64,000 nt of DNA from Pseudovibrio exalbescens (GTDB lineage Bacteria; Pseudomonadota; Alphaproteobacteria; Rhizobiales; Stappiaceae). The stretch spans positions 124,001-188,000 of the forward strand of contig NZ_JAQZAJ010000006.1 of NCBI RefSeq assembly GCF_028737195.1, written 5' to 3'. Shown piece after piece: positions 36,356-62,677 of this stretch (the first letter of the stretch is position 1; each line of letters begins with the position of its first letter). Position numbers and translations under genes: made by a program. The notes beneath the pieces were generated by a model that ran no database searches, was not told the DNA's origin, and saw only the letters and a program-made list of their open reading frames with translations.

Positions 36356-36385
36356 TTGACACAATATGTAGCTACATATTACGAA
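36356..36385 (+). promoter_or_regulatory. Likely hutI promoter overlapping the operator
   Basis: TTGACA at 36356-36361 is a perfect -35 box. TACGAA at 36380-36385, 18 bases on, is a plausible -10. The spacer is occupied by the 18-bp palindrome, so a bound repressor would block polymerase. The divergent hutF promoter must use the same 74-base gap. Confidence 0.55.
36363..36380. promoter_or_regulatory. Probable HutC operator, 18-bp perfect palindrome
   Basis: AATATGTAGCTACATATT is perfectly palindromic and sits midway between the divergent hutF and hutI genes. GntR/HutC regulators bind such dyads with a TGTA..TACA-like core. Its position in the promoter spacer would let one site control both hut operons. 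Confidence 0.75.
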
Positions 36386-36416
36386 TATGCAGGCTCATTT
36401 GCAAGAAGGATAGAGC

Positions 36417-37613
36417 ATGACGAGCGCCAAGCTGATCACCAATGTCAGGGCCGCGACGATCACGGGAGGGAGCTATGGGCTGATAGAGGACGCTGCCATT
36501 GCGTTAGAGGGTGGCCGGATTGCGTGGGCTGGCTCTCGTGCGGAGATGCCAGCTTCATATGCCAATGCTGAGCCCGTCGATCTGGACGGCCGATTGGTTA
36601 CCCCGGCGCTCATTGATTGTCATACGCATCTTGTTCATGGCGGCAATCGTGCTGGTGAATTCGAGATGCGCCTTGAGGGGGCAAGCTATGAAGAGATTGC
36701 CCGCGCTGGCGGTGGCATTGTCTCCACGGTTACGGCGACACGGGATGCTTCGGAGGAGGCTTTGCTTGCCAGTGCATTGGTGCGCGCCGATGCCTTGATT
36801 GGCGAGGGTGTCGGGGTGGTTGAGATCAAGTCTGGATATGGGCTTGATATGGAAACGGAACTCAAGATGCTTCGGGTGGCGCGCCGTGTGGCTGACCATC
36901 GGCCCTTGCGCGTTGTCACCACGTTCTTAGGCGCTCATGCCGTTCCTAAAGGTGTGGACGCGGACGCCTACATTGATGAGGTTTGCCTGCCTGCGCTTGA
37001 GGCCGCACACGCCGAGGGGCTGGTTGATGCCGTTGATGGGTTTTGTGAAGGGATTGCTTTCAGTCCTGCGCAAATCGCCCGCGTTTTCGATCGTGCAAAG
37101 GCATTGGGTTTGCCGGTCAAGCTTCATGCCGAGCAGCTTTCCCATCAGGGTGGAACTGAACTCGCCGCTCAATGCGGCGCTCTTTCGACAGATCATCTGG
37201 AATACATAACTGACGCCGATGTACGCGCCATGGCCACAGCTGGCAGTGTTGCGGTGCTTCTGCCGGGCGCGTTTTACACGCTGAACGAAAAACAAAAGCC
37301 TCCTGTTGGTGCGCTGCGAGACCACGCTGTGCCGATGGCTGTTGCGACTGACTGGAACCCGGGTACGTCTCCTCTCGGTTCACTCCTGCTGGCGATGAAT
37401 ATGGCCTGCACGTTGTTTGGTCTCACGCCCGTCGAAGCCCTGAGAGGGACCACATACAATGCAGCAAGGGCACTTGGCCTTTCCGACTGCGGCACCATTG
37501 CTCCGGGAAAACGTGCCGATCTGGCAGTTTGGAATGTCGCTCATCCTGCCGAGCTTTCCTATGGCATTGGCATCAATCCACTTCACAAACGCATCTTTGG
37601 AGGACGCCTATGA
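36417..37613 (+). CDS. hutI: Imidazolonepropionase
   Basis: 398 residues, amidohydrolase superfamily. After a short beta-sandwich N-terminus come [29 protein letters not shown] (HTH metal motif and substrate loop), [63 protein letters not shown] and [10 protein letters not shown] with the late aspartate. It hydrolyses imidazolone-5-propionate to N-formimino-L-glutamate. ATG 36417 is preceded by AAGGA. The gene leads the rightward operon, and its stop overlaps the hutH start (ATGA). Confidence 0.95.
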
Positions 37614-39127
37614 CCCTTGTGCTGAAACCCGGCGCATGCTCACTTCTTGAGCTGGAACAGATTTGGCAAGGAAAAGGTGCTCGGCTTACACCTTCAGCTC
37701 GGGCCGATGTGGAGGTGGCCGCAGAACGCGTGCGCAAAGCCGCTCAAGGAGATGTGCCCGTCTATGGCGTGAATACTGGGTTTGGCAAGCTTGCATCCGT
37801 GCGCATCGCGCCGGAAGACACCGAAACCTTGCAGCGCAATCTGATCCTAAGCCATTGCTGCGGTGTTGGATCACCGCTTGAGGCGGAGACCACGCGTTTG
37901 ATGATGGCACTCAAGCTGTTGTCGCTGGGGCGCGGCGCATCCGGAGTACGCTGGGATATATGCGCCTTGATCGAAGGGATGTTGGACGCGGGTGTTCTGC
38001 CTGTTATTCCCTCGCAAGGTTCTGTCGGAGCTTCCGGCGATCTGGCGCCCCTTGCCCATCTGGCTGCAGTAATGATCGGTGAAGGCGAAGCAATATACGC
38101 CGGGGAGCGTATGCCGGGCGGCACGGCACTTGAAAAAGCCGGGATGTTGCCAGTTGTGCTTGGTCCCAAAGAGGGTCTCGCCCTTATCAACGGGACACAG
38201 TTCTCAACGGCCTGCGCGCTGGCAGCTCTGTTTGAAACATGGCGGATGCTTCGAACATCGGTTGTGACATCCTGCCTTTCGGCTGATGCGATAATGGGCT
38301 CAACCCAGCCCTTGCACCCGGAAATTCACCGTCTGCGCGGCCATGCTGGCCAGATCGATGTTGCCTCCGCGATGTCCAGGTTGATGGAGGGCAGCGTGAT
38401 CCGCGAGAGCCATCTTGATGATGACAGTCGTGTCCAAGACCCCTATTGCATCCGCTGCCAGCCACAGGTGGTTGGAGCGGCTCTGGACCTTGTGCGTTTT
38501 GCTGGAAAAACGTTCGAGATTGAGGCGAATGCGGTAACAGACAATCCGCTGGTGACCGCCGATGGCATTTTCTCTGGAGGGAACTTCCATGCTGAGCCTG
38601 TGGCGTTTGCTGCCGATCAAATTGCGCTGGCCCTGTCCGAGGTTGGGGCGATTGCACAGCGACGTGTTGCACTAATGGTGGACCCTGCCCTCAGTCATGA
38701 TTTGCCACCTTTCCTGACGCCAGAACCCGGCTTGAACTCCGGCTTCATGATCGCTGAGGTTACCACTGCGGCTTTGATGAGCGAGAACAAACATCTCGCC
38801 AATCCGTGCTCGACGGACTCGACACCGACCTCGGCCAATCAGGAAGACCATGTGAGCATGGCAGCCCATGGTGCGGTTCGGCTGAAGCGGATGACTGCCA
38901 ATCTCTCCGTGATCTTGGGTATTGAGGCACTGTGTGGGGCTCAAGGCATTGAAGCCCGCGCCCCTCTCGTCACATCCACTGCGCTTCAAGCTGTCGTGGC
39001 AAAGCTCCGCAGCCAAGTTCCTAGCCTTGTCGGCGACCGTTACCTCGCTCCGGACATCGAATTGGCCGCGTCGCTGGTGCGCAATGATGAACTCGCGCAA
39101 GCTGCCAGGTTGGAGTTGCAGATATGA
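37610..39127 (+). CDS. hutH: Histidine ammonia-lyase
   Basis: 505 residues. Start ATG 37610 is set by the ATGA overlap with hutI and by homology from MTLVLKPG. The protein contains [27 protein letters not shown] (the Ala-Ser-Gly triplet that cyclises to the MIO electrophile, about residues 141-143), [12 protein letters not shown] and the late [11 protein letters not shown]. It removes ammonia from histidine to give urocanate, the first step of the pathway and the source of the HutC inducer. Length is normal for the family. Confidence 0.96.
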
Positions 39128-39912
39128 GTTTCCTCGAGATCTCGCAGGGCGACAGTCCGCTTGTGTTGGGGCTGCCGCACACTGGCACAGAGCTTCCCGA
39201 CGACATTGCCAGCCGCCTGAACGAGACCGGACTGGCATTGGCTGATACAGACTGGCATGTACACAAGCTCTATGAGGGGCTGGTGCCGGGTGTGACGACA
39301 GTTCGAACGCGGATACATCGCTATGCTATTGATGTGAACCGCGACCCGAAGGGCGTCAGTCTCTACCCCGGCCAAAACACCACTGGTTTGTGCCCGCTGA
39401 CTGACTTCAACGGCATCGAGATCTATCGGAGCGGCAGTGCACCGGATGAGGTCGATGTTGAAATCCGCAGGCAGACCTACCATGCGCCGTACCACGCCGC
39501 TCTGTCGGCAGAGCTTGACCGCGTCAAGGCTATGCATGGGTTTGTCATTCTTTATGATTGTCACTCCATTCGGTCCAAAATTCCGTTCCTGTTTGATGGC
39601 ACCCTCCCGGTTTTCAACATCGGAACGAATGGCGGTACAACATGCCACAATCAAATAGCAGGCCGCGTAATCGATTGCTGCACTCAGGCTGCCGACTACA
39701 GCAGCGTTGTTGATGGGCGCTTTAAAGGCGGCTGGACGACACGCCACTATGGGCGTCCGGCAGACGGCCTCCATGCCATTCAAATGGAGCTCGCGCAATG
39801 CTCCTACATGCAGGAGCGCGCGCCTTGGACCTATGATCCGGAGAAGGCCGATCGGCTCCGTGCCCATCTGAAAACCATACTTGAAGCCCTGATAGAGTGG
39901 AGGCCCTCATGA
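39124..39912 (+). CDS. hutG: N-formylglutamate deformylase
   Basis: 262 residues of the N-formylglutamate amidohydrolase family. Key segments are [63 protein letters not shown] and GGWTTRHYG. Paired His/Asp/Glu residues would bind zinc. It hydrolyses N-formyl-L-glutamate, the product of hutF, to glutamate and formate. Start ATG 39124 overlaps hutH by four bases, and its end overlaps hutU by four bases. Confidence 0.93.
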
Positions 39913-41582
39913 CCAACCCACGGCACAATCAACGCGATGTATACCCACCCACCGGTAGTGAGCTTTCGGCTAAGAACTGGCAGTCCGAGGCTGCCATGCG
40001 CATGCTGATGAACAACCTGCACCCAGACGTGGCGGAAAACCCCCATGAGTTGGTTGTCTATGGCGGGATCGGACGCGCCGCGCGGACCTGGGAGGATTTT
40101 GACAGGATCGTGGCTGGTCTCAAGGACCTTGAGGCGGACGAAACACTCATTGTTCAGTCAGGCAAACCCATCGCAATCATCAAGACACACCAAGACGCCC
40201 CCCGTGTCCTGATTGCAAACTCCAACATCGTTCCGCATTGGGCCAATTGGGATCACTTCAACGACCTCGATCGCAAGGGGTTGATGATGTACGGCCAGAT
40301 GACAGCCGGCTCGTGGATTTACATTGGCTCACAGGGCATTGTGCAGGGCACCTATGAGACATTTGCTGAGGCGGGCCGCCAGCATTTCGGCGGCAATCTG
40401 AAAGGCAAGTGGATCCTCACCGGCGGTCTTGGCGGCATGGGTGGGGCTCAGCCTTTGGCGGCGGTGATGGCAGGTGCCTGCTGTCTTGCCGTAGAATGCA
40501 ATCCCGACAGCATCGATGCGCGACTTCGGACGCGTTATCTGGATGAGAAGACAGAGAGTCTGGATGAGGCGCTGGAAATGATCGAGCGCTGGACGAAAGC
40601 AGGCGAAGCAAAGTCCGTTGGGTTGCTCGGCAATGCAGCCGACATTTTCCCGGAGATTTATCGCCGAGGTGTTCGGCCCAGCATCGTGACCGACCAGACT
40701 TCCGCTCATGATCCAATTAATGGATATCTGCCGCAAGGTTGGTCGCTGGCGGACTGGCGGGCAAAGCGAGAGACCGATCCAAAGGCGGTTGAAGCGGCAG
40801 CCAGAGCGTCGATGAAGGTTCATGTAAAGGCCATGGTCGATTTCTGGAATGACGGCGTTCCGACGCTGGACTACGGCAACAACATCCGGCAGGTGGCTCT
40901 GGAAGAGGGCCTGGAAAATGCCTTTGCATTTCCGGGGTTTGTTCCCGCTTACATCCGTCCACTCTTTTGCAAAGGAGTTGGTCCGTTCCGGTGGTGCGCA
41001 CTCTCGGGTGACCCGGAAGACATTTATAAGACCGATCAGGCCATGAAGGACCTCTTTCCAGAGAACGCGCATCTGCATAATTGGCTGGATATGGTGCGAG
41101 AGCGAATTTCGTTCCAAGGCTTGCCTGCGCGGATCTGTTGGATCGGCCTGGGAGATCGCCACCGTGCTGGCTTGAAGTTCAACGAAATGGTGGCGAGTGG
41201 TGAACTGAAAGCACCCGTTGTTATCGGCCGCGATCACCTCGACAGCGGATCTGTTGCCAGCCCAAACCGCGAGACCGAAGCGATGAAAGACGGCTCTGAT
41301 GCTGTCAGCGATTGGCCTTTGCTCAATGCCCTTGTCAACACGGCGAGTGGAGCAACCTGGGTCTCGCTGCATCATGGTGGTGGGGTTGGAATGGGCTTTT
41401 CACAACATGCCGGGGTGGTGATCGTGGCGGATGGAACTCCAGAGGCTGCAAAACGGTTGGAGCGCGTGTTGTGGAATGATCCGGCTTCAGGTGTCTGGCG
41501 CCATGCAGATGCTGGCTATGATATTGCGATTGAATGCGCAAAAGAGCATGGTCTGCGCCTGCCGGCGATCTTGGGCAACTAG
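39909..41582 (+). CDS. hutU: Urocanate hydratase
   Basis: 557 residues from ATG 39909, which has GGAGG five bases upstream and overlaps the hutG stop (ATGA); a GTG at 39897 is in frame but would hide that site. Segments diagnostic of urocanase: [56 protein letters not shown] (NAD-binding), [36 protein letters not shown] with the conserved active-site Cys region, and [13 protein letters not shown]. It converts urocanate to imidazolonepropionate with tightly bound NAD+. It is the last gene of the rightward operon. Confidence 0.96.
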
Positions 41583-50467: not shown

Positions 50468-51673
50468 CTATCCGCTAATGGTTGTTTCGAGATTGGGGGC
50501 CGCTTTATTTTTGCTCCAGTAGGAAACGCAGGGTATTTTCGAGTGATCTGCACGCGACCTGTAGCGTTCTGTTATCTCTTTAATTTCATTGAGCAGCCCA
50601 TCTTCAATGAGCGTTGGCGTCCACCCGAAGGACCGCAGCAGATCATTGCGGACCACCAGATCGTTCTTCTCAGCTTCATTTCGAGGGTTTTTTAGATAGC
50701 TGATCTTACAGCCTGTCATCTCTTGGATGTGCAATGCCAAGTCACAAAGGGTTTTGGTCTCTGCCATCTGGTTAAGCACAAGAGGTCGTGCGCCGGCAGT
50801 CGGTGGATGCAAGAGTGCCTGCTCTATGCACTTACAGGTGTCAGAGATGTGAATGAAAGCTCGAGTTTGCCCCCCTGTTCCGTGCACCGTCAGTGGATAC
50901 CCGACAGCTGCTTGCATCAAGAAGCGGTTGAGAACCGTTCCGTAGTCGCCGTCATAATCGAAGCGGTTAATAAGCCGTTCGTCCAGTTCGGTCAGTTCCG
51001 TTTGAGTTCCCCATACGATGCCCTGATGCAAATCTGTGATACGGAGCTTGTCATTCTTTGCGTAGAACTGAAACATCTGAGCGTCCATCGTCTTAGTCAT
51101 ATGATAGATGGAGCCTGGGTTTGGAGGATAGATAATTGTATCCGAGACCTGCCTGCCGTCGAGTGTGTCAATTTTCACCTCCAGGTAGCCTTCAGGAATC
51201 GGAATTGGTTCCTCATGGCCGTAGCCATAGACGCCCATCGTGCCCAGGTGCACCAAATGCACATCAAGCCCTGTTTCCACTATTGCGTTAAGTACATTGT
51301 GGGTGCCGCAAATATTGTTCTGGATGGTATAATTCTTCGTATGGCCGGACTTCATCGAATATGGCGCAGCCCGTTGTTCTGCAAAGTGAATAATAGCATC
51401 AGGCTGTTCTTCCCTGAGCGTGGACAGCAGTCCCTCGAAATCAGCGGCGATATCCAACTCGATAAACCGTATTACATGACCGGTACGATCGAACCATGCA
51501 TCCAGCCGATCGCCCACCCCAGAAATCGGTGTCAAGGAGTTGGTGCCAATTTCTTCATCAATGCGTCTGCGAGAGAGGTTGTCCAGAATAATCACGTCGT
51601 GCCCGAGATTGGACATGTGTAGCGCAGTTGGCCAGCCGCAAAAGCCGTCGCCACCCAAGACCATAATTTTCAT
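50468..51673 (-). CDS. sqdB: UDP-sulfoquinovose synthase-like SDR (SqdB/SQD1 family)
   Basis: 401 residues from ATG 51671-51673, preceded by GGAG about eight bases upstream. The sequence follows plant SQD1 and bacterial SqdB closely: IMVLGGDGFCGWPTALHMS, DNLSRRRIDEEIGTNSLTPI, HFAEQRAAPYSM, NNICGTHNVLNAI, LVHLGTMGVYG (catalytic Thr), GSIYHMTKTMDAQ (YxxxK), DLHQGIVWG, RFDYDGDYGTVLNRF and GGQTRAFIHISDT. The family makes UDP-sulfoquinovose from UDP-glucose and sulfite with bound NAD+. It is the first gene of the leftward glycosyltransferase operon. No recognisable sqdA/C/D or sqdX gene is beside it, so the sugar may enter a polysaccharide or glycoconjugate and not sulfolipid. That use is inference. 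Confidence 0.85.
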   Translation of the reverse strand: MKIMVLGGDGFCGWPTALHMSNLGHDVIILDNLSRRRIDEEIGTNSLTPISGVGDRLDAWFDRTGHVIRFIELDIAADFEGLLSTLREEQPDAIIHFAEQRAAPYSMKSGHTKNYTIQNNICGTHNVLNAIVETGLDVHLVHLGTMGVYGYGHEEPIPIPEGYLEVKIDTLDGRQVSDTIIYPPNPGSIYHMTKTMDAQMFQFYAKNDKLRITDLHQGIVWGTQTELTELDERLINRFDYDGDYGTVLNRFLMQAAVGYPLTVHGTGGQTRAFIHISDTCKCIEQALLHPPTAGARPLVLNQMAETKTLCDLALHIQEMTGCKISYLKNPRNEAEKNDLVVRNDLLRSFGWTPTLIEDGLLNEIKEITERYRSRADHSKIPCVSYWSKNKAAPNLETTISG

Positions 51674-51798
51674 TTGGTCACTCCGTAAATCGCAGTCAAA
51701 AAAATAGTAGATTTTGTAGTTCGTCAAAAGCATTTACTAATAGAATGTGAATTGGAAGCTCAAATATTGATGGTTATACAGTTGGTAGGTCTTGCATC
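51674..51798. promoter_or_regulatory. Divergent promoter region of the glycan and TPR-methyltransferase genes
   Basis: 125 AT-rich bases separate the leftward sqdB-like gene and the rightward methyltransferase gene, so both promoters must lie here. No operator or clear -35/-10 pair could be fixed. Confidence 0.35.
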
Positions 51799-53148: not shown

Positions 53149-53165
53149 AACCCTGGGAAGCATCG

Positions 53166-53197
53166 AAGCTTGAATAAAGAATTTTTCAAGCTTTTTT
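53166..53197 (+). terminator. Rho-independent terminator after the TPR-methyltransferase
   Basis: AAGCTTGAA (53166-53174) pairs perfectly with TTCAAGCTT (53185-53193) around a 10-base loop, followed by TTTT. It separates the methyltransferase gene from the carbamoyltransferase operon. Confidence 0.85.
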
Positions 53198-53325
53198 GCG
53201 TTGAGGCCGCGCGAAGTTGAGAAAGTTAAACTTTGTATCTGTAATGTGAACTGTTAGATCGAAGACGGGATTCGAGTCTGAGTACTTAAGTTACTGAATA
53301 TTATTATTGAGGTGCTGCTTTAAAC

Positions 53326-53450: not shown

Positions 53451-55463
53451 TTGCAGGATGGCTTCTATATCTCGGCTTACTGCCAGATTGGGCAGCTTGA
53501 GTACCTCCATCGCATCGCTCTCAGGCATGACCAGAACATCAGCTTGTGGCGTAAGGCGGGGCAGGCTATAGAGCTCGTCCAGCTGTGGGAGCTTGAGCGC
53601 TATTCGGGACAGAAGCATCACACGCAAGCCTTTTACAACACAGATCATTTTCGAGAATTTCTGCAGGAGCGTCTGGCTCCCCTCGGATTGAAGCCCGCCG
53701 ACATCAAGGGAATGTGGGGGACGCCGGGAGTCACCACGGACGCCACCGACTACTGGCACCGCTATGGCGACTTTTCGCAGCATAGTCTGGCCCACCTCTT
53801 TAGCGCGATGATGTTGGATAAAGAGGTTTTCGAGAGAGGTTGTATCGTGGGTCTGGCCGTTGATGGCGGGCCAGATAGCCTGGAGGATCTTTATAGCCGG
53901 GATAAGCCATTCTACGCTGGGGCTATAGTAAAGTCTGGGAGTGTTAAGGTATTCCCTGTCCCGTCGACGGCTCCATTCTGGGCGTTACTTCGGCAATACT
54001 TTGGCTTGAAAGAAGGGAGCTTGATGGCACTAGCAAGTGCTTGTCGCGGGCCAGATCTTTTGCCAGAGCAGGCGCCGCCGCCCATTTTTGGCGTTGCGGA
54101 TTTTCTTGAAGCCGATGCCTGGTTCAACGGAATGATCGATAAGGTCAATTTTCTTTGCGATGAAGAAAAATCAGAGGATATGGACGGAAGGTTCTCCCCT
54201 CTGGAAAATAAAGCGGCAGTTATGACGCGGATTATTCAGGCCTGTACTGAGAAGCGGCTTGAAAATACGGTGTCATCTATTTTAAAAGAACATGAAGTTG
54301 ACCCGCGATCGAGCCATCTTGCCATGGCTGGCGGCTTGGCACTTAACTGTCCTGCCAACACGCATCTCATGAATACTTTTGGGTTCAAGGGATTTATTGC
54401 CCCACCTTGCGTCAATGACTCAGGGCTTTCGATGGGGTTGGGGTTGATGCGTTTTTTTGAACAAAACAGGGATTTTGCGTTCAAATTTGCGTCGCCTTAC
54501 GTTGGGGGGCGTTCGGGGAGCTCAGTCGAAGCTGTTGTGGCTTCTGAAAGCTTCAGCCCTTTCGTTCGCGCGCTATCAACTTATGCCCCCTCTGAGTTCT
54601 TGGAGGATATTGTTAAGGGACCCGTGGTGCGTATCTGCGAAGGCTCTGAGGTTGGGCCGCGCGCCTTGGGTAATCGATCTTTGCTGGCTGATCCGAGAAC
54701 GGAGCGGTCCAAGGATCTGTTGAACTCAATCAAACAACGGGAGTGGTGGCGGCCTGTCGCCCCGGTCGTTCTGGAGGAGCATATCGACGCTTGGTTTGAG
54801 GAAGCGTTTCCGTCACCTTACATGCTGCATGCATTTGCAGTGAAGCCAGAGCAGCAGGCCCTCGTTCCGGCAATCTGCCATCTGGATGGCACGGCACGCG
54901 CGCAGACACTCTCTCGCGCAGCAAATCCGGCGCTCTACGATGAGATACAGGCCTTTGCGCGCGAAACCGGGGTGCCGATGCTGTGCAATACCTCGCTGAA
55001 TGATCGCGGCGAACCCATTTTGAACAGCTTGGAAGCGGCGCTCGACTTTGCGCTGAAAAAGGAACTCAGCGTTGTTTATGTTGATGGCTTTCGGCTAGAG
55101 CTGACGAACTTCAAGGTATACCAATCCGCGCCGCCACCCGAAGGGGTCAACCGGAGCTTTGTGCCACGGCAGCCTATCGACTGGGCAGAAGCCGAGCGAG
55201 CAGCCAATCCGCTGGAGCTGACCCGGGAAGAGCTGGTCTTAAAGCAGCTGAACCCGCGCTTGAGAGCTCTTGATCACAAAGACCCGGAACAACTGCCCAG
55301 ACTGCGCAAACTGCTGCGCCGTGTCAGGGCGCAGTTTTCCAAGCGTGCGGACTTCCAGTTTGTCGATCTGGCGCAGGATTTTGATGCACCGAACACGCCG
55401 CCCCGCGAGGCGAAGGCTCTAAGCCGGGCGGAGCCGCCGCGTCTGGAGGTAACAGATGGATAG
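53451..55463 (+). CDS. Carbamoyltransferase, NodU/CmcH-like family
   Basis: About 670 residues. TTG 53451 is the likely start: GGGGGA lies eight bases upstream, and conserved sequence begins there (QDGFYISAYCQIGQLEYLHRI, ALRHDQNISLW); two other TTG codons at 53433 and 53436 precede that site. The N-terminal Kae1/HSP70-like domain shows HSLAHLFSAMM and LAVDGGPDSLEDLY. LAMAGGLALNCPANTHL and PPCVNDSGLSMGLGL are hallmark motifs, and the C-terminal part has EVGPRALGNRSLLADPR, WWRPVAPVVL and MLCNTSLNDRGEPI. The family uses carbamoyl phosphate and ATP to put a carbamoyl group on a hydroxyl of a sugar or natural product. It leads a four-gene run with an acyltransferase, radical SAM protein and P450. 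Confidence 0.88.
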   Translation: MQDGFYISAYCQIGQLEYLHRIALRHDQNISLWRKAGQAIELVQLWELERYSGQKHHTQAFYNTDHFREFLQERLAPLGLKPADIKGMWGTPGVTTDATDYWHRYGDFSQHSLAHLFSAMMLDKEVFERGCIVGLAVDGGPDSLEDLYSRDKPFYAGAIVKSGSVKVFPVPSTAPFWALLRQYFGLKEGSLMALASACRGPDLLPEQAPPPIFGVADFLEADAWFNGMIDKVNFLCDEEKSEDMDGRFSPLENKAAVMTRIIQACTEKRLENTVSSILKEHEVDPRSSHLAMAGGLALNCPANTHLMNTFGFKGFIAPPCVNDSGLSMGLGLMRFFEQNRDFAFKFASPYVGGRSGSSVEAVVASESFSPFVRALSTYAPSEFLEDIVKGPVVRICEGSEVGPRALGNRSLLADPRTERSKDLLNSIKQREWWRPVAPVVLEEHIDAWFEEAFPSPYMLHAFAVKPEQQALVPAICHLDGTARAQTLSRAANPALYDEIQAFARETGVPMLCNTSLNDRGEPILNSLEAALDFALKKELSVVYVDGFRLELTNFKVYQSAPPPEGVNRSFVPRQPIDWAEAERAANPLELTREELVLKQLNPRLRALDHKDPEQLPRLRKLLRRVRAQFSKRADFQFVDLAQDFDAPNTPPREAKALSRAEPPRLEVTDG

Positions 55464-56961
55464 AAACGCTGGAAGTGAGGCGATTGACCGCCGGGCGCAG
55501 AACCAGAAACTCCGGGAGGCAAAAGAAGCTGCCCAAAAAGCTGAGGCTGACGGCGACCTGAACAGGGCGCTGGCTTTATGGTCTGGACTTGTTGAGAGCG
55601 CGCCGCACTTTCTGCCTGCTGTCGTTGGGGTCATTCGTACACAGCGCGCCTTGGGGCAATGGTCCGAGGCTTTGGTAGCAGCGCGGAAGGCACTGGCGAC
55701 CTGGCCCGACAGACCGGCCCTCCTTCGCCATGCGGCGCAACTCTCCAAGCAAGCGGGCGCACACTCTGACGCGTTGCAGTTCGCTCGGGCACTCGCGGAA
55801 CTGGAGCCAGAAAATCCTGTTCCTCTGCGTTTGGAGCTCATGAGTTTGTTCTCGCTTGGGAACTATGAAGAGCTTGAGGGCAAGATCGAAAGCGCCTTGC
55901 AGAAGCACCCTTCGGACACAGCATTGCGTCATGTTTATATTCTGTTGAAGCGGGTTACTTCCCCTTCATCTGGTGACATAACAAGACGTGCTCAGTGGTT
56001 CCACGAAAGCCCGGCTGATCGGGTTTTCTATTCTTTTTATCTGGATGGTCTTCACGGCACGGGGCGGCTGGAACAGGCAAGAGCAGCGCAGGAGCTCCAC
56101 GAGCATGCGCGCCAGAAAACTGAAAAATTACAGGATCTTGAGGCTTTTCGAGCGCGCCTCAATGCGCCGCCCGAACCCAAGAAGCAAGATGCCGTCTTTT
56201 TTAAAAGGATACGCCAGTTTCTGTGTCCGCCAGGTGTCCCAGACGATGAGTTTATGCGCGGCATGGTGTGGGGCGCTGCTGCAAACAGACTTTCCATGCA
56301 ATGCTTCATGGACTTGCCAGCCGAAGCCGAGCACATGGAAGGGCTTTTTGTGCCGCCGGACCTTGGCGCGGTGCGTGTGGCGCTCAACAAAGGGAAGGGT
56401 TGTCTCTTGGTCGCGTCTCACAACGGCCCAACGGCGGCAGCTTCTTGGTATCTTGAGCGGCAGTTTGAACGCTTCAGGCGTATCGGCAATCGCGGCAACT
56501 TGATGTTGGCACGACGTCCTGAAAATGCGTGGGAGCCAGAAGCGCATAAGTCCATACTCATCGGCGCAAAGCCAAGAGCGGAATTGCGGGCTGTCATTAA
56601 AGCATTGAAAGAAAATGACGTGCTGGCGCTTGCCTGCGATGGAAGTCAGGTCGGTTCCGCCGTAGAAGTGGCGTTTCTGGACGGCACCCTGAGGCTTTGG
56701 GACATGCCCGCGCGCCTAGCTGTGAAGCATGGGGTTCCCACATTTTGGTGCCAACCCTATTGGCAGGGCGAGAGCATTGCCCTTGAAATAGAAGAGATTG
56801 CGCCGAACACTGCATCACCGGATGCTGACGTTGCGGTCATGGAATGGGCGCGGAGTTTTGCCAGCAAGCTGGAGCGCCACCTGCGCAGGTCTCCGCGAAA
56901 CTACACGTATACCAGAGATTTTTGGGCAAGGGCCATGGGGTCCTCGCCTGGCTCGGACTGA
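55456..56961 (+). CDS. TPR protein fused to LpxL-type acyltransferase-like domain
   Basis: 501 residues starting inside the end of the carbamoyltransferase gene (8-base overlap). The first about 210 residues are TPR-like (AQKAEADGDLNRALALWSGL, RALGQWSEALVAARKALATW, HSDALQFARALAELEPENPV). The second half resembles lipid A late acyltransferases (HtrB/LpxL family): GCLLVASHNGPTAA, LARRPENAW, LRAVIKALKENDVLALACDG and LWDMPARLAVKHGVPTFWCQ. In LpxL the catalytic motif is H-X4-D/E; here the histidine of SHNGPTAA is followed by alanine at that spacing. The chemistry may therefore differ or be lost. It would sit at the inner membrane face and attach or handle an acyl chain on the same product. Confidence 0.7.
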   Translation: MDRNAGSEAIDRRAQNQKLREAKEAAQKAEADGDLNRALALWSGLVESAPHFLPAVVGVIRTQRALGQWSEALVAARKALATWPDRPALLRHAAQLSKQAGAHSDALQFARALAELEPENPVPLRLELMSLFSLGNYEELEGKIESALQKHPSDTALRHVYILLKRVTSPSSGDITRRAQWFHESPADRVFYSFYLDGLHGTGRLEQARAAQELHEHARQKTEKLQDLEAFRARLNAPPEPKKQDAVFFKRIRQFLCPPGVPDDEFMRGMVWGAAANRLSMQCFMDLPAEAEHMEGLFVPPDLGAVRVALNKGKGCLLVASHNGPTAAASWYLERQFERFRRIGNRGNLMLARRPENAWEPEAHKSILIGAKPRAELRAVIKALKENDVLALACDGSQVGSAVEVAFLDGTLRLWDMPARLAVKHGVPTFWCQPYWQGESIALEIEEIAPNTASPDADVAVMEWARSFASKLERHLRRSPRNYTYTRDFWARAMGSSPGSD

Positions 56962-56974
56962 AGACGGGGCATCG

Positions 56975-58168
56975 ATGATAAACGCCGCAAACAAGGATGC
57001 ACGGGCATCCGGTGGTTTTGCAAGTCTGCGAAGCGTGACCTACAAAAAGTGGGTTGCGCAACGGATCTCGCATTTCCTCAGCCTCCACCCCCAGCTTGAG
57101 CCTCGCTACGCGGCGGCCAAGAAAGTGGTGCGTGCTTTCCGTCGTCCTGCCTTCTATGAGATTTCGACGCGCTGCAATTTGAAATGTGAAGGCTGCTATT
57201 ATTTTGAGGGGGGGCAATCCCACGTTTCCGATATTCGGGCGCAGGATGAAGAATGGGCACAGTTCTTCAAGGAAGAGCAGCGGCGCGGTGTTTCAATGGC
57301 CTATTTCGTCGGCGCGGAGCCTGCCTTGGAACCGAAGCGTTTGATGGCGGCCGCCGAGTGTTTCCCTTGGGGAAACATCGGCAGCAACGGCACGATCAGA
57401 ATTCCCTCCGAGGTGCCCTACCGCATTGGTGTCTCGGTTTGGGCAGCCGATGAAGAAACCGATCGCGTGATGCGCGGCGCGGGTGCTTTCCGCAAGGCCC
57501 TGATGAACTATGCGGGGGACCCGAGAGCGATCATTCTGTTTACCGTGTCACGCTGGACCATTGATCATATTCCGATGATTGCCCAGCAGTGCCGAGAGCA
57601 CGGGCTGCCACTCACGTTCAATATCTACTCTCCAACCCACAGCTATCTGGAGAAACTCAAGTCACATCAAAGCAATGACCAGGCGTTTTTCCGCGTAAGT
57701 GCGCCGGAAGACAACCCGCAGCTGGGGCCTGAAGACCTTTACCGCATGGCGCAGGTGATCGAGGAGACCATGGATCGGTATCCGGAAACAGTCATCTACG
57801 ATCGTGGCTATAACCGGCTCATGAGTGCGCGCGAGGCGCCCCATGCGATAGATCCGGCTACCGGTATTGCCGAAAATTGCGGCTCTCGGATGGTTGCCCC
57901 TATGCGTTACTTCGGCACCAACCGACAACAGCTGCAGGTCAAGTGCGGCACTTCTGATGTGGACTGCAGTCAATGCCGCCTGTACTCCGGCGGCTGGTCT
58001 TCTCGCTTTGTGCCCAGCCCTGCAGACCTTGAGGACCTGCAAGGCTTTAAGGGGTGGTTGGACACGATGGATGTGCTCGGGCGGATTTTCCTCATCGGTG
58101 CGGCCGAGCCATATCATGTGCCTGCTGCCGAAAGTGCCGATCAGTTTGCTGGACGTGCGTTTGAATGA
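56975..58168 (+). CDS. Radical SAM protein with C-terminal cysteine cluster
   Basis: 397 residues from ATG 56975, which lies 14 bases after the acyltransferase gene. After about 60 residues, FYEISTRCNLKCEGCYYFEGG gives the CxxxCxxC site for the radical [4Fe-4S] cluster with the following aromatic residue. YFVGAEPALEPKRL replaces the usual GGEPLL SAM-binding turn. IGVSVWAADEETDRVMRGAG and FNIYSPT follow the TIM-barrel plan. Near the end ENCGSRM, KCGTSDVDCSQC and a further motif suggest an auxiliary SPASM-like Fe-S site, common in enzymes acting on peptides or sugars. Its end overlaps the P450 start (ATGA). The substrate is unknown; the operon suggests late modification of a carbamoylated or acylated product. 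Confidence 0.8.
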   Translation: MINAANKDARASGGFASLRSVTYKKWVAQRISHFLSLHPQLEPRYAAAKKVVRAFRRPAFYEISTRCNLKCEGCYYFEGGQSHVSDIRAQDEEWAQFFKEEQRRGVSMAYFVGAEPALEPKRLMAAAECFPWGNIGSNGTIRIPSEVPYRIGVSVWAADEETDRVMRGAGAFRKALMNYAGDPRAIILFTVSRWTIDHIPMIAQQCREHGLPLTFNIYSPTHSYLEKLKSHQSNDQAFFRVSAPEDNPQLGPEDLYRMAQVIEETMDRYPETVIYDRGYNRLMSAREAPHAIDPATGIAENCGSRMVAPMRYFGTNRQQLQVKCGTSDVDCSQCRLYSGGWSSRFVPSPADLEDLQGFKGWLDTMDVLGRIFLIGAAEPYHVPAAESADQFAGRAFE

Positions 58169-59436
58169 GTGGAGCGACGATGGCCCCTCGCCTGTCTTTT
58201 GCCCGGGCTGACGAGATCAACTGGAAGAACCTGTCACAGATTATTCGCTTCCGGCCAAACACACGACCGGTGGAGCTTCTTCATGAACCTATGGTGCTTC
58301 GGCGCATCAAAGGACGGCAAGTGGCGTTGATTGCCGATGCGGCTGCCGCTGAACAGATCCTGTTCGTGAGGCCTCATGACTTTCCGAAATCCGAGGTCCA
58401 GCGCAAGCTGGCCTGCGTGGCGCTCGGCGAAGGCATCAGCGGGACCCGAGGGGAACAGAGTGCTCAACAGCGGCGTGCCATTCGGCCCTTGTTCAGCGCT
58501 GTTTTGAAGGAGTGTCTGGCACAGGTCACCGTTGAAGCAACGGCTGATGCGGTGGGGCGTTGGCGGCGGAAAGGCACAATTGATCTCGGCTTGGAAATGT
58601 CTGATCTGGCGCTGCAAATCGCCTGGGCAACCCTTTTCGGGCCTGGCAGATATGAAGGTCGAGACCCAGTTGTTACGCAAACAGTGCAAGAGATTGCCCG
58701 CGCAAGCAGGGCCGATTTTCTCGACAACTCCAAAATCGTCAAGCGCCTGACGAGACATTTCATTGACAGCGGGCGGTGGAAGAAGGTCGCGGACAGCTCC
58801 CCGTTTTCTCAGATCACCAACCCGGCTGGGCATTCGGCAATGAAGCTGAGCCAAGCGGAACTGGAGGCAAATGCGAGCGTACTGATTGCCTCGGGCCATG
58901 TGTCTACAGGCATTTCCTTGGCGTGGATCGCTTGGCTGATGGCAGCGCTGCCCGAAAGGCAAAACCAGCTTCGCGAGAGCCTTGGCACATGGCAAGCGCC
59001 GGAAAGGAGCCCCCTTCTCGCTGCGACCATGAATGAAGCGCTCAGGCTGTTTCCAGCTGTGCCCGAAGCCATGCGTGACGCGAAGGTGCCCTTCGAAATA
59101 GATGGCGTGCCTCTAGAGCGCGGGGCACTCTTGATTGTCTCGCTATATGCTCTCCATCGCAGTCACAGATACTGGGAGGCGCCGGATTCGTTCTCTCCTG
59201 AACGCTTTTTGTCCGGACCCAAAGCCCCGCGCGGGGCATTTATCCCCTTTTCCGGTGGGCCTTACGGCTGCCTTGGAGCGGCAATTGCTCAAGAGGAAAT
59301 CTCGCAGGTGATCAGCTCGGTCATGTCGCAGGTTCGGTTGAAACTGCCGGATCGCGATGAGCCCGCCCCCGGGCTTGAAACAGGTGTTTGTCTCTACCCC
59401 GACCGTCCTCTTCTTGTTGAAGTTGCGGGCCTTTAA
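58165..59436 (+). CDS. Cytochrome P450
   Basis: 423 residues. The start at ATG 58165 overlaps the radical SAM stop; ATG 58180 with GGAG seven bases upstream is an alternative. P450 landmarks: I-helix SVLIASGHVSTGISLAWIAWL (with SGHVST in place of AGxxT), K-helix MNEALRLFPAVPEAMRD (ExxR), FSPERFLSG, and the heme loop FIPFSGGPYGCLGAAIAQEE with the proximal cysteine. No membrane anchor is seen, so it is a soluble bacterial P450 needing a ferredoxin system encoded elsewhere. It would hydroxylate or couple the product of the operon. No ferredoxin gene is adjacent. Confidence 0.92.
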   Translation: MSGATMAPRLSFARADEINWKNLSQIIRFRPNTRPVELLHEPMVLRRIKGRQVALIADAAAAEQILFVRPHDFPKSEVQRKLACVALGEGISGTRGEQSAQQRRAIRPLFSAVLKECLAQVTVEATADAVGRWRRKGTIDLGLEMSDLALQIAWATLFGPGRYEGRDPVVTQTVQEIARASRADFLDNSKIVKRLTRHFIDSGRWKKVADSSPFSQITNPAGHSAMKLSQAELEANASVLIASGHVSTGISLAWIAWLMAALPERQNQLRESLGTWQAPERSPLLAATMNEALRLFPAVPEAMRDAKVPFEIDGVPLERGALLIVSLYALHRSHRYWEAPDSFSPERFLSGPKAPRGAFIPFSGGPYGCLGAAIAQEEISQVISSVMSQVRLKLPDRDEPAPGLETGVCLYPDRPLLVEVAGL

Positions 59437-59443
59437 GGCCCGC
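59425..59443. terminator. GC-rich hairpin overlapping the P450 stop codon
   Basis: GCGGGCC (59425-59431) and GGCCCGC (59437-59443) pair perfectly around five bases that include the TAA stop. No T-run follows, so it may be a weak or Rho-assisted terminator, an mRNA 3-prime stabiliser, or both. Confidence 0.5.
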
Positions 59444-59747
59444 TCCCAGGCGTTCTTTCCTAAATCTCTTGTGGCAAATTGAGGTCCTGCTGGGGCGCGG
59501 CACCCACCGGCATTCTCCCCCGTTGCTATTTATAACCATGCTATGTTTTCTCAAGGTCATTCCTCCCAGAGAAACGTGAGAATGGCGTCAAGAGTTATGC
59601 CCCTATAGGTTGCTTGAAGTAAATTAATGCAACCAAAAAGAGAAATGGCACGGCAACTCCCAGCGACTTTGCTGTCTCAGTTGCAGATTTATGTTTCCGT
59701 CTCTTTTTGGATCGCTAGTCAACCAAGGAACCTTAGGTGAGGACTGA
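59444..59747. other. Intergenic region before the collar-protein genes
   Basis: About 300 bases without a gene. TATAAC near 59531 and several A/T tracts could hold a promoter for the collar-protein unit, but no matching -35 was found. The sequence before 59748 contains GAGGA five bases from the ATG. Confidence 0.35.
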
Positions 59748-60293
59748 ATGGGACAACCCTTTATCTCCCAGATATCTCTGTGGGGCTTGAACTTCGCGGT
59801 TGAGGACTGGGCGTTTTGCGACGGCCAGACACTTAATATTTCTCAGTATGCGGCTCTCTATTCTCTGCTGGGTACCAAGTATGGAGGCAACGGAACCTCC
59901 ACCTTTTCGTTGCCAAACCTCAAAGGGCGCATAGCAACGGGCTTGGGCTACCCGGGGGAAGACCGTGGCACCATTGGCGGTACGGAAACCGTGACGCTTA
60001 CTGAGGTCAGCATGCCGGCTCATACCCACCGAGGCACAGTGCTGACGGTGGCTGATGACCCGGGCACCAGCGGGCCCGCAACAGGCCTTGTGATGGCAAA
60101 CCCTACCGTGACTCGCCCGGGGTCCAGCGTAGTTGGCAGTTCCTTCTCGGAGGACGGGAGCCCAGATGCTTCCTTCAGTGCAGGAAATCCGACGGAAAGC
60201 GTTGGTTCAAGTACACCGTTTTCCGTGCGCAGTCCGTTTCTTGCAGTGAATTACGAGATCGCGTTGGAAGGCGTCTATCCTTCTCGGGATTAG
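59748..60293 (+). CDS. Phage tail collar domain protein (MdpB-like), copy 1
   Basis: 181 residues, the first of three paralogues. It starts MGQPFISQIS and carries [50 protein letters not shown], the canonical tail-collar fold of microcystin-dependent protein MdpB and phage short tail fibres (about residues 15-70). Then come MPAHTHRGTV, a variable Gly/Ser/Pro-rich middle and a conserved end SPFLAVNYEIALEGVYPSRD. There is no signal peptide. These proteins form trimers in phage tails; bacterial stand-alone copies have no proven role. No other phage genes are nearby. Ribosome binding site and ATG are clear. Confidence 0.88.
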   Translation: MGQPFISQISLWGLNFAVEDWAFCDGQTLNISQYAALYSLLGTKYGGNGTSTFSLPNLKGRIATGLGYPGEDRGTIGGTETVTLTEVSMPAHTHRGTVLTVADDPGTSGPATGLVMANPTVTRPGSSVVGSSFSEDGSPDASFSAGNPTESVGSSTPFSVRSPFLAVNYEIALEGVYPSRD

Positions 60294-60339
60294 AAGCTTG
60301 TGTTCACCTGCCGTTTAAACAAGTTTTAAGGAGTAAGTC

Positions 60340-60900
60340 ATGGCGGAGCCATTTATCTCCCAGATTTCGGCGTTTGGCCTCGGGTTCACCATTGAGGGCT
60401 GGACCCAATGTCAAGGTCAGTTGCTGTCGGTTGGACAGAACCAAGCGCTGTTCTCCCTCATCATGGATATCTATGGCGGCGATGGCCGTGTGTCCATGGG
60501 CGTGCCGAACCTGGCAGGCCGGACGGTGTTGCACTCAGGTACCGGTCCGGGCCTGTCCAACCGGAATCTGGGAGACCAACACGTCTCCAGAGCCTGGGCG
60601 CTCACCGATCTTGAGATGCCCTCTCATGACCACCTCATTGCCCAAAAAGCCAAGCCGAGTTCTGGCGCTTCCCGTGATCCCGCTCCGGGCTTTGTCACTG
60701 CGATACCGGAAGGCTCATTTGGCGGTACCCCGGTAATCGCGGACTGGTATGCATCTGCCTCCAATCTGACAGACTTGTCTTCCTATGGCTCTCCGGCCAC
60801 CAGTACCGAAGGTGCCAGTTCACCCATTTCGACTATGTCGCCATTTCAGGTGGTTAGCTACCAAATGGCTTTGCTTGGGACGTATCCACCGCGCCCCTAA
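60340..60900 (+). CDS. Phage tail collar domain protein (MdpB-like), copy 2
   Basis: 186 residues, start ATG 60340 with AAGGAG upstream. It has the same plan as copy 1: MAEPFISQISAFGLGFTIEGW, QCQGQLLSVGQNQALFSLIMDIYGGDGRVSMGVPNLAGRTVLHSGTG, MPSHDHLIAQ and a C-terminal SPFQVVSYQMALLGTYPPRP. It is the most divergent of the three, with a changed first cysteine context and a shorter central segment. The repeated N- and C-terminal frames with variable middles suggest that the middles specify binding while the ends assemble. Confidence 0.85.
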   Translation: MAEPFISQISAFGLGFTIEGWTQCQGQLLSVGQNQALFSLIMDIYGGDGRVSMGVPNLAGRTVLHSGTGPGLSNRNLGDQHVSRAWALTDLEMPSHDHLIAQKAKPSSGASRDPAPGFVTAIPEGSFGGTPVIADWYASASNLTDLSSYGSPATSTEGASSPISTMSPFQVVSYQMALLGTYPPRP

Positions 60901-60935
60901 ACGCCTCGACACTTTGCGTTTGTATCTAAAATTGA

Positions 60936-60955
60936 AAACACCTTGACGGGTGTTT
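60936..60955 (+). other. Small hairpin between collar genes 2 and 3
   Basis: AAACACC (60936-60942) pairs with GGTGTTT (60949-60955) around six bases, directly before the ribosome binding site of the third collar gene. It could tune translation or expression within the operon; it has no T-run beyond it. Confidence 0.4.
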
Positions 60956-60973
60956 CTAAAATGGAGGCATGAA

Positions 60974-61513
60974 ATGTCACAGCCATTTATGTCGCAGATT
61001 TCGATCTTTCCGCTCGTCTTTGCTGTCCAGGACTGGGCCTATTGTGACGGACAGATACTCTCAATCAGTCAGTACAATGCGCTCTTTTCGTTGCTTGGTA
61101 CAACTTTTGGTGGAAATGGACGCACGTCATTTGGCCTGCCGGAAATGCGGGGCCGCGTTGCTGTTCATCGGGACACCAACGGGCTTTATCCATGGGGCCT
61201 ACGGTCAGGCAACGAGACGCAGACCCTTGATGTCAACAACCTGCCACCGCACACGCATGACAATGTGCGGTTCGCAGCTTCCACCTTGGTTGGGAGTGAA
61301 GTGCCATCAGACATGACCATTCTCTCGGTCCCGCAAGTCGGCGGTTTGGTTGGCGATGGTTTTGCGGTGCCCGACGGGAGTGAGGTCACGCTCGGCAATA
61401 GCGGCAGCCGAACGATAAAAAGCGGATCGGGCATCCCTTTCTCGATCATGGACCCGTTCACCTGCATGAACTACGAGATCTCGCTCAAAGGGGTGTACCC
61501 CTCAAGAGCGTAG
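60974..61513 (+). CDS. Phage tail collar domain protein (MdpB-like), copy 3
   Basis: 179 residues from ATG 60974, with GGAGG six bases upstream. It begins MSQPFMSQISIFPLVFAVQDW, continues with AYCDGQILSISQYNALFSLLGTTFGGNGRTSFGLPEMRGRVAVH and LPPHTHDNVRF, has a variable middle, and ends DPFTCMNYEISLKGVYPSRA. Closest by eye to copy 1. The three genes are unlikely to be prophage remnants because all are intact and accompanied by a GNAT and a DUF6916 gene. Confidence 0.88.
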   Translation: MSQPFMSQISIFPLVFAVQDWAYCDGQILSISQYNALFSLLGTTFGGNGRTSFGLPEMRGRVAVHRDTNGLYPWGLRSGNETQTLDVNNLPPHTHDNVRFAASTLVGSEVPSDMTILSVPQVGGLVGDGFAVPDGSEVTLGNSGSRTIKSGSGIPFSIMDPFTCMNYEISLKGVYPSRA

Positions 61514-61548
61514 CTTCTCCCGTTTTTCACCCAGAGTGGAGGTATGTG

Positions 61549-62133
61549 ATGACCGCAGTGAGCCCCCATGATGTGAGGATCAGGCCAGCCGGAGCCGCAG
61601 ATGAGCCGTTCTTGAAGCGTGTGCACGCCGCGGAACGGCATTGGGAGTTCGCGCCCCTTCTCAATGCAGGGGACGAGGAGAACTACCACAAGGTGCTGGC
61701 GCAGCAGTATAACGCCCATCATGAGGTCTATTTCAACAGCTACACTGTTGCAAAGTATGGGATCATTTTGCTGTGCGGGACGCCGATCGGCCGGCTCTAT
61801 CTGGATGAGCGGGAGGGTGAGTTCCGGGTTCTGGACATCGCCTTGCTGCCACACTACCGGGGGCGCGGGATCGGTTCGATTATCATGCATGGGATTTGTG
61901 CAACTGCTGCACGTATGCGTTTGCCCGTGACCTTGCATGTGCACTGCCTAAACGCAGCGGCCTATCGGTTCTACTGGCGGCTTGGGTTTGAGCCGGTGAG
62001 TTCGAACCAACGGCACACGCTGATGCGGTGGTTTCACCCAAGCTATGAGCAGTTTGCCAGTGGGCACTTTGTGCCGCCGGACGTAACCATCCGGCGTCTG
62101 CAGCACGAAAACGCGGGGTCGGGTGCAGCCTGA
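61549..62133 (+). CDS. GNAT-family N-acetyltransferase
   Basis: 194 residues from ATG 61549, with GGAGG six bases upstream. The acetyl-CoA binding motif is FRVLDIALLPHYRGRGIGSIIMHGICATA (Q/RxxGxG/A as RGRGIG), followed by LHVHCLNAAAYRFYWRLGFEPV, the typical N....Y...GF end. It is cytosolic. It lies between the collar genes and the DUF6916 gene in the same orientation, and probably acetylates or otherwise N-acylates a component of this system. The substrate is unknown. Confidence 0.88.
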   Translation: MTAVSPHDVRIRPAGAADEPFLKRVHAAERHWEFAPLLNAGDEENYHKVLAQQYNAHHEVYFNSYTVAKYGIILLCGTPIGRLYLDEREGEFRVLDIALLPHYRGRGIGSIIMHGICATAARMRLPVTLHVHCLNAAAYRFYWRLGFEPVSSNQRHTLMRWFHPSYEQFASGHFVPPDVTIRRLQHENAGSGAA

Positions 62134-62216
62134 CCGCGGTGACTTCTCTGAAAATGCCTTGGCACCGTGAAAGCACTTGGGCTGAGGCGTGTATGCATCA
62201 TCAAATGGAGGTAGTT

Positions 62217-62501
62217 ATGAAAGCCATCAAGGATTTGGAACACACTGACTTTACTGGTTTGGTTGGCGAGGAGTTTGCAATCGGGCATTACAAAGCCAAG
62301 CTCACCTCCGTCTCTCTGGGGCCTGATACGCCTTCCGAGTTCCGCGAGCAGTTCTCGTTGATCTTTGAATGCCCGGATAATTTTGTCGGTGACCACGACA
62401 CGCTGGCGATCTCTCACGATACCATCGGAGCGCATTCCGTCTTCATCTCCAAAGTGATGGGGAGCAATAAAACACCGAACCTTCAGGTGGTGTTTAGCTG
62501 A
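62217..62501 (+). CDS. DUF6916 family small protein
   Basis: 94 residues from ATG 62217, with GGAGG five bases upstream; a longer frame from 62139 lacks a site. The sequence fits the DUF6916 plan: HTDFTGLVGEEFAI, AKLTSVSLGPD, FREQFSLIFECPD, and a final DTIGAHSVFISKVM. This family is of unknown function; to my knowledge it occurs near MdpB-type collar proteins in several bacteria. The terminator 30 bases downstream marks the end of the unit. Confidence 0.75.
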   Translation: MKAIKDLEHTDFTGLVGEEFAIGHYKAKLTSVSLGPDTPSEFREQFSLIFECPDNFVGDHDTLAISHDTIGAHSVFISKVMGSNKTPNLQVVFS

Positions 62502-62531
62502 TTGATCTCATTGGAGATCGAGACCTGAAAA

Positions 62532-62564
62532 CAAAGCTGGCGGCATCTGTGTGCCGCCAGCTTT
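62532..62564 (+). terminator. Strong Rho-independent terminator
   Basis: AAAGCTGGCGGCA (62532-62544) pairs perfectly over 13 bp with TGCCGCCAGCTTT (62551-62563) around a 6-base loop, with TTTT at the end. Symmetry means it can also serve the leftward peptide-transporter genes, which end at 62678. Confidence 0.9.
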
Positions 62565-62677
62565 TCGTTTCATCCGACCCTCGCCGGTTAAAGCTCAGGG
62601 AGCGTTGGCCGCTTCGCTCTGATGGATCTAACCCTTCAAAGGCCGCGCCTGATTGTTGAGCGCGGCACGACCCAGTC

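Follow-up and report, generated by a model that had tools for sequence, protein, structure and literature searches.

The acyltransferase VexE, which produces a capsule lipid anchor (PMC9597891), is among the nearest characterised relatives of one of the enzymes treated here. The genes next to this enzyme lead to bacterial collar triplets ('microcystin-dependent', 'tail fiber') and phage short tail fibres, with which our locus shares the Collar domain, three tandem paralogues, and a GNAT and often a DUF6916 gene alongside. Passages of PMC3174227 report collar paralogues of Solibacter with a sign of positive selection, and in passages of PMC11633204 collar genes of Acaryochloris appear in lists of regulated genes; these passages name no function for them. 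Our literature searches on bacterial 'tail collar' or 'microcystin-dependent' proteins found no function either, and among the matches listed phage work prevailed.

Here, we describe a 64,000-nucleotide stretch of Pseudovibrio exalbescens (contig NZ_JAQZAJ010000006.1, positions 124,001 to 188,000), called the window and numbered from its first letter, in which four enzyme genes, three collar genes, a GNAT gene and a DUF6916 gene follow each other on the forward strand between 53451 and 62501. We propose that these nine genes form one unit composed of two modules, of which the first makes a small acylated metabolite and the second is a surface or export accessory; we give this explanation as a whole a probability of roughly 55%. 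The parts belong to known families, and their combination is new to us. A sequence-only reading of the window had already named the enzyme and collar/GNAT/DUF6916 families, which Pfam profiles bear out, and had all genes on the same strand, which holds for the nine. Its spacing is exact as well, with an 8-base overlap (55456-55463), a 13-base gap (56962-56974) and a 4-base overlap (58165-58168).

The second gene (55456..56961, +) encodes a tetratricopeptide repeat (TPR) domain fused to a lysophospholipid acyltransferase (LPLAT) fold, which is the architecture of VexE. The part C-terminal of the TPRs matches Lip_A_acyltrans of Pfam at 30.1 bits (cut-off 22.3). Further features common to both proteins are PatA and LpxM as nearest solved folds, the replaced acid of the HX4D/E motif, and a His with a distal acid. 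LpxM acts on a sugar-bearing acceptor. The classical LpxL/LpxM motif HX4D/E is absent from the window protein, which carries [ST]HxGP and whose sixth position is not acidic; nevertheless, the His is invariant in 13 rows and D395 (or Glu) stands in every alignment row shown, so that, on sequence alone, a His with a distal Asp/Glu is retained and H322 and D395 are a putative catalytic pair. The window protein differs from VexE in its shorter TPR part, its weak sequence similarity, a score of 50.3 bits against the VexE equivalog model NF011721 (cut-off 1200), and the absence of other Vi-type genes from the nine. According to the literature, VexE and PatA use sugar-bearing acceptors. Because the nearest characterised relatives of the fold do so, a sugar or nucleotide sugar is our favoured first guess for the core of the product, a tentative one that we would expect to fail more often than to hold.

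The first gene (53451..55463, +) encodes an O-carbamoyltransferase of the NodU/TobZ kind. Both of its domains exceed the Pfam cut-offs (Carbam_trans_C 182.7 bits against 27, E-value 5e-54; Carbam_trans_N 28.1 bits against 24), and its PDB relatives are the carbamoyltransferase 7xb6 and TobZ. It shares the C-terminal domain and part of the N-terminal domain with this enzyme type, but stays far under the NodU equivalog cut-off (154 bits against 1000). The TTG start at 53451, as first read, agrees with the homologues in an N-terminal alignment of nine rows.

The third gene (56975..58168, +) encodes a radical SAM enzyme. Its Radical_SAM score of 22.2 bits lies under the Pfam cut-off of 29.5, but CxxxCxxC is present, with C67, C71 and C74 invariant in a 37-row alignment, and the predicted fold agrees in showing the barrel. 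In the same alignment, the C-terminal C324, C331 and C334 are invariant and C302 is conserved in at least 90% of the rows, in a spacing unlike the one we take to be that of SPASM domains. The enzyme is 12-16% identical to BlsE, viperin, DesII, SkfB and SuiB, differs from all of them by its own spacing of the four C-terminal Cys, and falls under the cut-off of every NCBIfam model listed. The fourth gene (58165..59436, +) encodes a cytochrome P450 (Pfam p450, 137.5 bits) with the heme motif FxxGxxxC and ExxR. The acid-alcohol pair of the I-helix, used in standard O2 activation, is not found; the acid is replaced (SGHVST).

A scan of genome contigs with an alignment of the radical SAM family gave 40 loci, of which L073 (36% identity over 55 residues) was dropped and 39 were counted; the same scan with the single protein gave six stretches, none of them confirmed. 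The TPR-LPLAT protein occurs in 14 of the 39 loci; 11 instead have an MBOAT protein (one confirmed by Pfam) accompanied by an SGNH-like protein, none has both types and 14 have neither. Thus, 25 loci carry one of two unrelated acyltransferase types and never both. With L034, cut by its contig, taken as TPR-LPLAT, such exclusion would have a probability of 0.0015 among 39 independent loci, which these are not. TPR-only matches in L060 and L071 were left uncounted; in these two loci and in L064 the TPR protein has a different C-terminal part, and a TPR-like neighbour of 499 residues in G082 was left unlabelled. A P450 gene is found in 20 of the 39 loci and a carbamoyltransferase gene in six. On a quick radical SAM tree of 40 rows (36 of the 40 loci without L034, L071, L072 and L073, plus the window, both G010 genes and G082), five neighbour labels need eight changes, TPR-LPLAT alone three and MBOAT alone four; at least two changes each are forced by starred branches, and some long branches leave the placement unsure. 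We read this as a radical SAM product that would need acylation by an exchangeable enzyme, with oxidation and carbamoylation following at some loci; the replacement of one acyltransferase by an unrelated one hints at the chemistry that is indispensable.

The family occurs in Alpha- and Gammaproteobacteria and in Magnetococcales, with distant kin in Deltaproteobacteria. Among 385 sampled alphaproteobacterial genomes, near full-length matches were found in three, including that of the window, and partial ones in four more. A plasmid search at an E-value of 1e-20 returned a single distant match, from Methylomagnum; this 36% relative (L082, 6401-15193) lies between a TauD-like dioxygenase and a non-ribosomal peptide synthetase (NRPS), after an acyl carrier protein gene. 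In Deltaproteobacteria, distant relatives follow relatives of PGA_cap-type and WD40 genes (L068, L070 and L072; families named on L070) and are paired in L068 and L070. One Magnetococcales bin has a second, weakly P450-like protein beside its P450 (L036, 3340-4467; 20.4 bits, under cut-off).

Several observations weigh against our explanation on the enzyme side. Neither acyltransferase is in reach at 14 of the 39 loci: apart from the contig-cut L034, five are gammaproteobacterial loci with a neighbour of about 334 residues (one scanned, GNAT-like by eye, no Pfam or NCBIfam match) and the rest show nothing clear. The locus L065 was counted as TPR-LPLAT on a piece of 114 residues. The name SGNH was given by eye, and the one member scanned has no Pfam match. 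The counts are not independent, since close relatives recur among the loci, namely several from Brevundimonas, two from Nioella and two from a single Magnetococcales bin. Where an MBOAT is present, the P450s give much weaker profile matches (1e-36 to 1e-46) and may be of another kind. Many P450s of other loci have GHVTT, AGHKTS or AGHDN in the I-helix, whereas L050 and L056 keep AGHEST; since the usual acid is absent in many of them, plain hydroxylation is unsafe as an assumption and an unusual P450 chemistry is possible. Finally, the radical SAM fold is equally near to the peptide-modifying SkfB and SuiB, with the top rows of the fold search tied, and its sole PDB sequence match is SkfB.

This last point bears on an alternative in which the radical SAM enzyme is a maturase of a ribosomally synthesised and post-translationally modified peptide (RiPP), acting on the collar proteins or on an unannotated peptide that the other enzymes decorate. 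SkfB and SuiB are among its best sequence and fold matches in the PDB, the best NCBIfam matches are the RiPP P450 ApyO for the P450 (134 bits, cut-off 525) and ScmE for the radical SAM protein (34.6 bits, cut-off 400), and collar modules elsewhere adjoin lasso-type RiPP genes. Yet 35 of the 39 loci have no collar gene in the fetched stretch, for which reason we rejected the collars as a general substrate. No PqqD or other leader-binding domain is found in the nine proteins with Pfam and NCBIfam at an E-value of 0.001, although an unmodelled RiPP recognition element could escape. Nor was a conserved short precursor seen: among the top 15 groups of small open reading frames (ORFs) near the block, those shared across loci are, by eye, of low complexity or overlap flanking homologous genes, although a distant or very short precursor could escape. 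The lasso proteins B1/B2 and an Asn-synthase cyclase are absent from the nine genes. Taken together, we consider a peptide or protein substrate unlikely. In agreement with the sequence-only reading, no NRPS, polyketide synthase (PKS) or RiPP gene was recognised by eye in ORFs of at least 200 residues (1-44.5 kb) and at least 90 residues (46-64 kb), a whole-window profile search not being made.

The collar half comprises collar proteins A (59748..60293, +; Pfam Collar 1.2e-24), B (60340..60900, +; 1.1e-16) and C (60974..61513, +; 6.3e-24, scored from GTG 60950), a GNAT (61546..62133, +; best NCBIfam match RimI at 32.6 bits, cut-off 86.4) and a DUF6916 protein of 94 residues (62217..62501, +; PF21880 at 51.3 bits, scored from 62139). 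The likely start of collar C is ATG 60974, the ORF list beginning at GTG 60950; for DUF6916 it is ATG 62217, the list beginning at GTG 62139. Collars A, B and C each match their own type in G010 and Leisingera, which would suit a mixed trimer. Among the distinct collar proteins, 43 fit a start pattern; Met is the first residue in 37 of them, and in 37 the second residue is Ser, Ala or Gly. Another 41 matches outside this pattern were not counted, and some of these also begin with MS or MA. As a RimI-like GNAT adjoins collars with such starts, N-terminal acetylation of the collars is at most a fair guess.

This half is a separate module. DUF6916 occurs in 16 of the 385 genomes (14 over the cut-off), and we fetched 19 loci around the matches in 15 other alphaproteobacterial genomes, seeing 20 kb of each. 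At least one collar gene is found in 18 of the 19 and a related GNAT in 12; an Asn-synthase-type gene is shared by six, and a sulfotransferase-type gene together with an HprK-like gene by six (families named on members). Of the members scanned, the lasso B2 proteases of L014 and L028 exceed their cut-off, whereas the PqqD-type, cyclase and HprK-like matches stay under theirs. Collar modules also lie near giant ORFs of about 1300-3300 residues (L016-L018, L021, L026, L029 and L030), with DUF4347 in all four giants scanned (L021, L026, L029 and L030). In annotated plasmid records, which were not scanned for DUF6916, collar triplets with a GNAT adjoin lasso genes in Azospirillum, a choice-of-anchor D giant in Ruegeria TM1040 and a VcbS protein in Deinococcus; two further annotated plasmid regions have them by large hypothetical proteins. 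The lasso-type neighbourhoods of Azospirillum and others (B2, PqqD-like, Asn-synthase) likewise place a collar/GNAT module beside a biosynthetic cluster, but with quite different enzymes, and the nine genes of the window hold no lasso genes.

Alternatively, the collar block could be the remnant of a phage tail or tailocin with the enzyme block as a chance neighbour. Collar A matches 336 phage records at an E-value of 1e-5, and all three collars have PHROG tail families. However, the GNAT has no phage match at 1e-5 and only weak PHROG acetyltransferase matches, DUF6916 has no PHROG, no other tail genes adjoin the collars in the window (51.8-64 kb) or in the five annotated plasmid regions, and collar triplets with a GNAT recur in Alphaproteobacteria and a Deinococcus. 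A scan of viral contigs for DUF6916 gave ten stretches, none of them confirmed. We therefore regard a mere remnant as very improbable; the window set differs from phage and other bacterial triplets by its tie to a small-molecule pathway and by the lack of other phage genes.

Within the genus, a radical SAM search of 61 genomes found relatives in 3 of 16 Pseudovibrio genomes, namely G000, G010 (two loci) and G011 (two pieces), and all nine genes recur in the same order in two of the 15 other genomes. In G010, order and orientation are as in the window. In G011, a P. exalbescens genome, the genes are divided between two contig ends and the radical SAM gene is interrupted by IS3-like genes; the pathway of this strain is therefore probably inactive. 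The break lies within the CxxxC region at both contig ends (L011 end, L012 start), the transposase genes being named by eye. The flanks vary: those of G010 encode an OprB porin and MnmA, those of G011 a methyltransferase and a glutathione S-transferase-like protein, and in the window the block adjoins the glycosyltransferase region. A second, smaller locus of G010 (L009) holds the radical SAM, TPR-acyltransferase, one collar, GNAT and DUF6916 genes within about 5 kb and adjoins relatives of the window genes at 34-41.6 kb. Of the 16 genomes, four have DUF6916, namely the three that carry the radical SAM gene and G007, where the set lies next to siderophore-type genes (under NCBIfam cut-offs). 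A third collar triplet with DUF6916 in G010 (L075, 7918-10030) has no related GNAT and adjoins transposase-like genes, as judged by eye.

The sequence-only reading had also placed the synthesis of the product in the glycosyltransferase region of the window. This part finds no support: blastp at 1e-5 gave no match between the window genes at 42-53 kb and the ORFs flanking the block in the two congeners, of which 36 kb were seen in G010 and about 16 kb upstream and only 1 kb downstream in G011. A product built by the neighbouring glycosyltransferases is not supported on the same ground, as neither congener has their genes in the flanking stretches seen. The idea of joint tailoring is supported, in that the four enzymes are part of a conserved set whose product is acylated, and in the genus and in Leisingera they occur together with collars.

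Are the two halves coupled? Leisingera sp. ANG1 has the same nine genes with the enzyme genes permuted, and the presence of this set in two congeners and in Leisingera suggests a grouping beyond chance. The GNATs of the window, both G010 loci, G011 and Leisingera form one clade apart from 18 others (100% in the Shimodaira-Hasegawa-like approximate likelihood ratio test, SH-aLRT), and all five belong to loci with a radical SAM and a TPR-acyltransferase gene. The collar-half genes of Leisingera are 66-81% identical to those of the window, each higher than its G010 counterpart (61-76%), whereas its enzymes show 29-55% against 45-69% for G010; in the enzyme tree, Leisingera groups with collar-less Roseobacter loci (100/100). 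The simplest reading, although not a proof, is a separate acquisition of the collar half by Leisingera. The pairing would therefore have arisen more than once, so that the halves have probably been joined repeatedly, which suggests a coupled function.

On the other side, the two modules lie apart in most genomes seen. Only four of the 39 radical SAM loci (L034, L035, L050 and L069) have a collar gene in the fetched stretch, several contigs being shorter than 10 kb, and one of the 19 DUF6916 loci (L019) has the enzymes within the 20 kb seen. Separation of the two blocks in most genomes, which the sequence-only reading had named as decisive against it, is thus mostly what we find, yet the pairing looks non-random. 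The locus of UR115 (L019/L050) has a GNAT and collars near the radical SAM gene, but its GNAT falls outside the clade and lies about 8 kb from the P450, and the collar set begins 6.7 kb after the P450 with lasso-type genes alongside; we therefore consider it doubtful as a joined unit. At L069, a collar gene is present, whereas a GNAT match is lacking from the whole genome. The 23 rows of the GNAT tree come from radical SAM, DUF6916 or GNAT searches, are not an even sample and carry a long-branch warning. The collar-half tree is not resolved and does not reject a Pseudovibrio-only clade (approximately unbiased test, p-AU 0.19). In G010, the P450 and the collar gene are some 1.2 kb apart, with two ORFs of the opposite strand in between.

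In another alternative, the enzymes would modify a cell-envelope glycan or lipid, for instance lipid A or a capsule anchor, and the collars would be unrelated neighbours from the same mobile region. MBOAT and SGNH pairs commonly acylate surface glycans. The anchor made by VexE, the patchy distribution of the block in the genus (3 of 16) and the collar modules beside giant surface-type proteins all fit this alternative. It is at odds with the glycosyltransferase region, which does not travel with the block, with the origin of all five GNATs of the clade from radical SAM loci, and with the five changes that the collar label needs on the radical SAM tree, counting the doubtful links L050 and L069. 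We judge it improbable and retain the two-module unit.

From family content, conservation, co-occurrence and the different relatedness of the halves, which are observed, we infer the chemical steps, the acceptor and the role of the second module as follows. The carbamoyltransferase, TPR-acyltransferase, radical SAM enzyme and P450 would make a small metabolite with no need of an NRPS, a PKS or a short precursor peptide. After the radical SAM enzyme has altered the core molecule, the TPR-LPLAT protein would acylate one of its hydroxyls or amines with a fatty acyl chain taken from acyl carrier protein, as VexE does with UDP-GlcNAc; in other loci, an MBOAT would acylate instead. The carbamoyltransferase may cap a hydroxyl and the P450 may oxidise the core or the chain, in an order that is conjectural. 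The three different collars, GNAT and DUF6916 would act as a portable surface or export accessory. In it, the collars probably form a trimer, either a short fibre or a lectin, by which the product is handled or presented, and N-terminal acetylation of the collars may be the task of the RimI-like GNAT. A bolder and rather doubtful extension is that this phage-fibre-derived set of three collars, N-terminal acetyltransferase and DUF6916 is a general carrier or presentation device plugged into varied product systems. In the window, it would serve lipids of a new class that resemble sugars or nucleosides, are made by radical SAM chemistry and bear acyl and carbamoyl groups; in other genomes, its partners would be lasso-type peptides, giant surface proteins and siderophore-type genes.

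Our literature searches found no paper on the enzyme-collar pairing or on DUF6916, none on 'tail collar' together with 'lasso peptide', and none that combines radical SAM, carbamoyltransferase, P450 and acyltransferase with Pseudovibrio; the main text of the Pseudovibrio cluster survey PMC5563371 has none of the terms carbamoyl, radical SAM, P450 and lasso. We found no account of the pathway marked by this radical SAM family, which looks undescribed. The family marks a biosynthetic pathway that lacks NRPS and PKS genes, from which clusters are commonly recognised, and its recurring pairing with tail-collar triplets offers a testable handle on bacterial 'tail fibre' genes.

The block is flanked by two terminator-like hairpins with T-runs on the forward strand. 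The first (53165..53197; stretch 53158-53200, -16 kcal/mol, z -3.96) lies between the block and a TPR-methyltransferase gene at 51.8 kb, which falls outside the nine-gene unit, and the second (62533..62565; stretch 62520-62570, -25.7 kcal/mol, z -5.40) lies 3' of the last gene. A scan with consensus promoters and terminators listed neither hairpin and gave 3 promoter and 15 terminator sites, where shuffled sequences gave 4.2 and 11.2, which is no excess. Two folded stretches in the interval between P450 and collar genes (59436-59700) are unremarkable (z +1.9 and -1.4), and Rfam at gathering scores found no known RNA across the window.

Among the other genes of the window, histidine-utilisation genes at 34283-41582 (hutU confirmed, others by eye) also anchor L009: hutU is followed by the small radical SAM/collar locus in G010 and by the glycosyltransferase region in the window, and the site is a possible insertion hot spot. 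A UDP-sulfoquinovose-synthase-like protein (50468-51733, -; 322.6 bits, cut-off 575) lies beside large glycosyltransferase-like proteins, and a sulfosugar glycan is possible for this region. At 11218-21864 (-), a filamentous-haemagglutinin-like protein of 2925 residues stands with an outer-membrane partner of 622 residues, both assigned by eye, and an ORF of 328 residues (9084-10070) lies downstream of the pair; the region looks like two-partner secretion or contact inhibition. A protein of 1122 residues (30291-33659, -) shows, by eye, a metalloprotease-like start and many calcium-binding RTX-like repeats.

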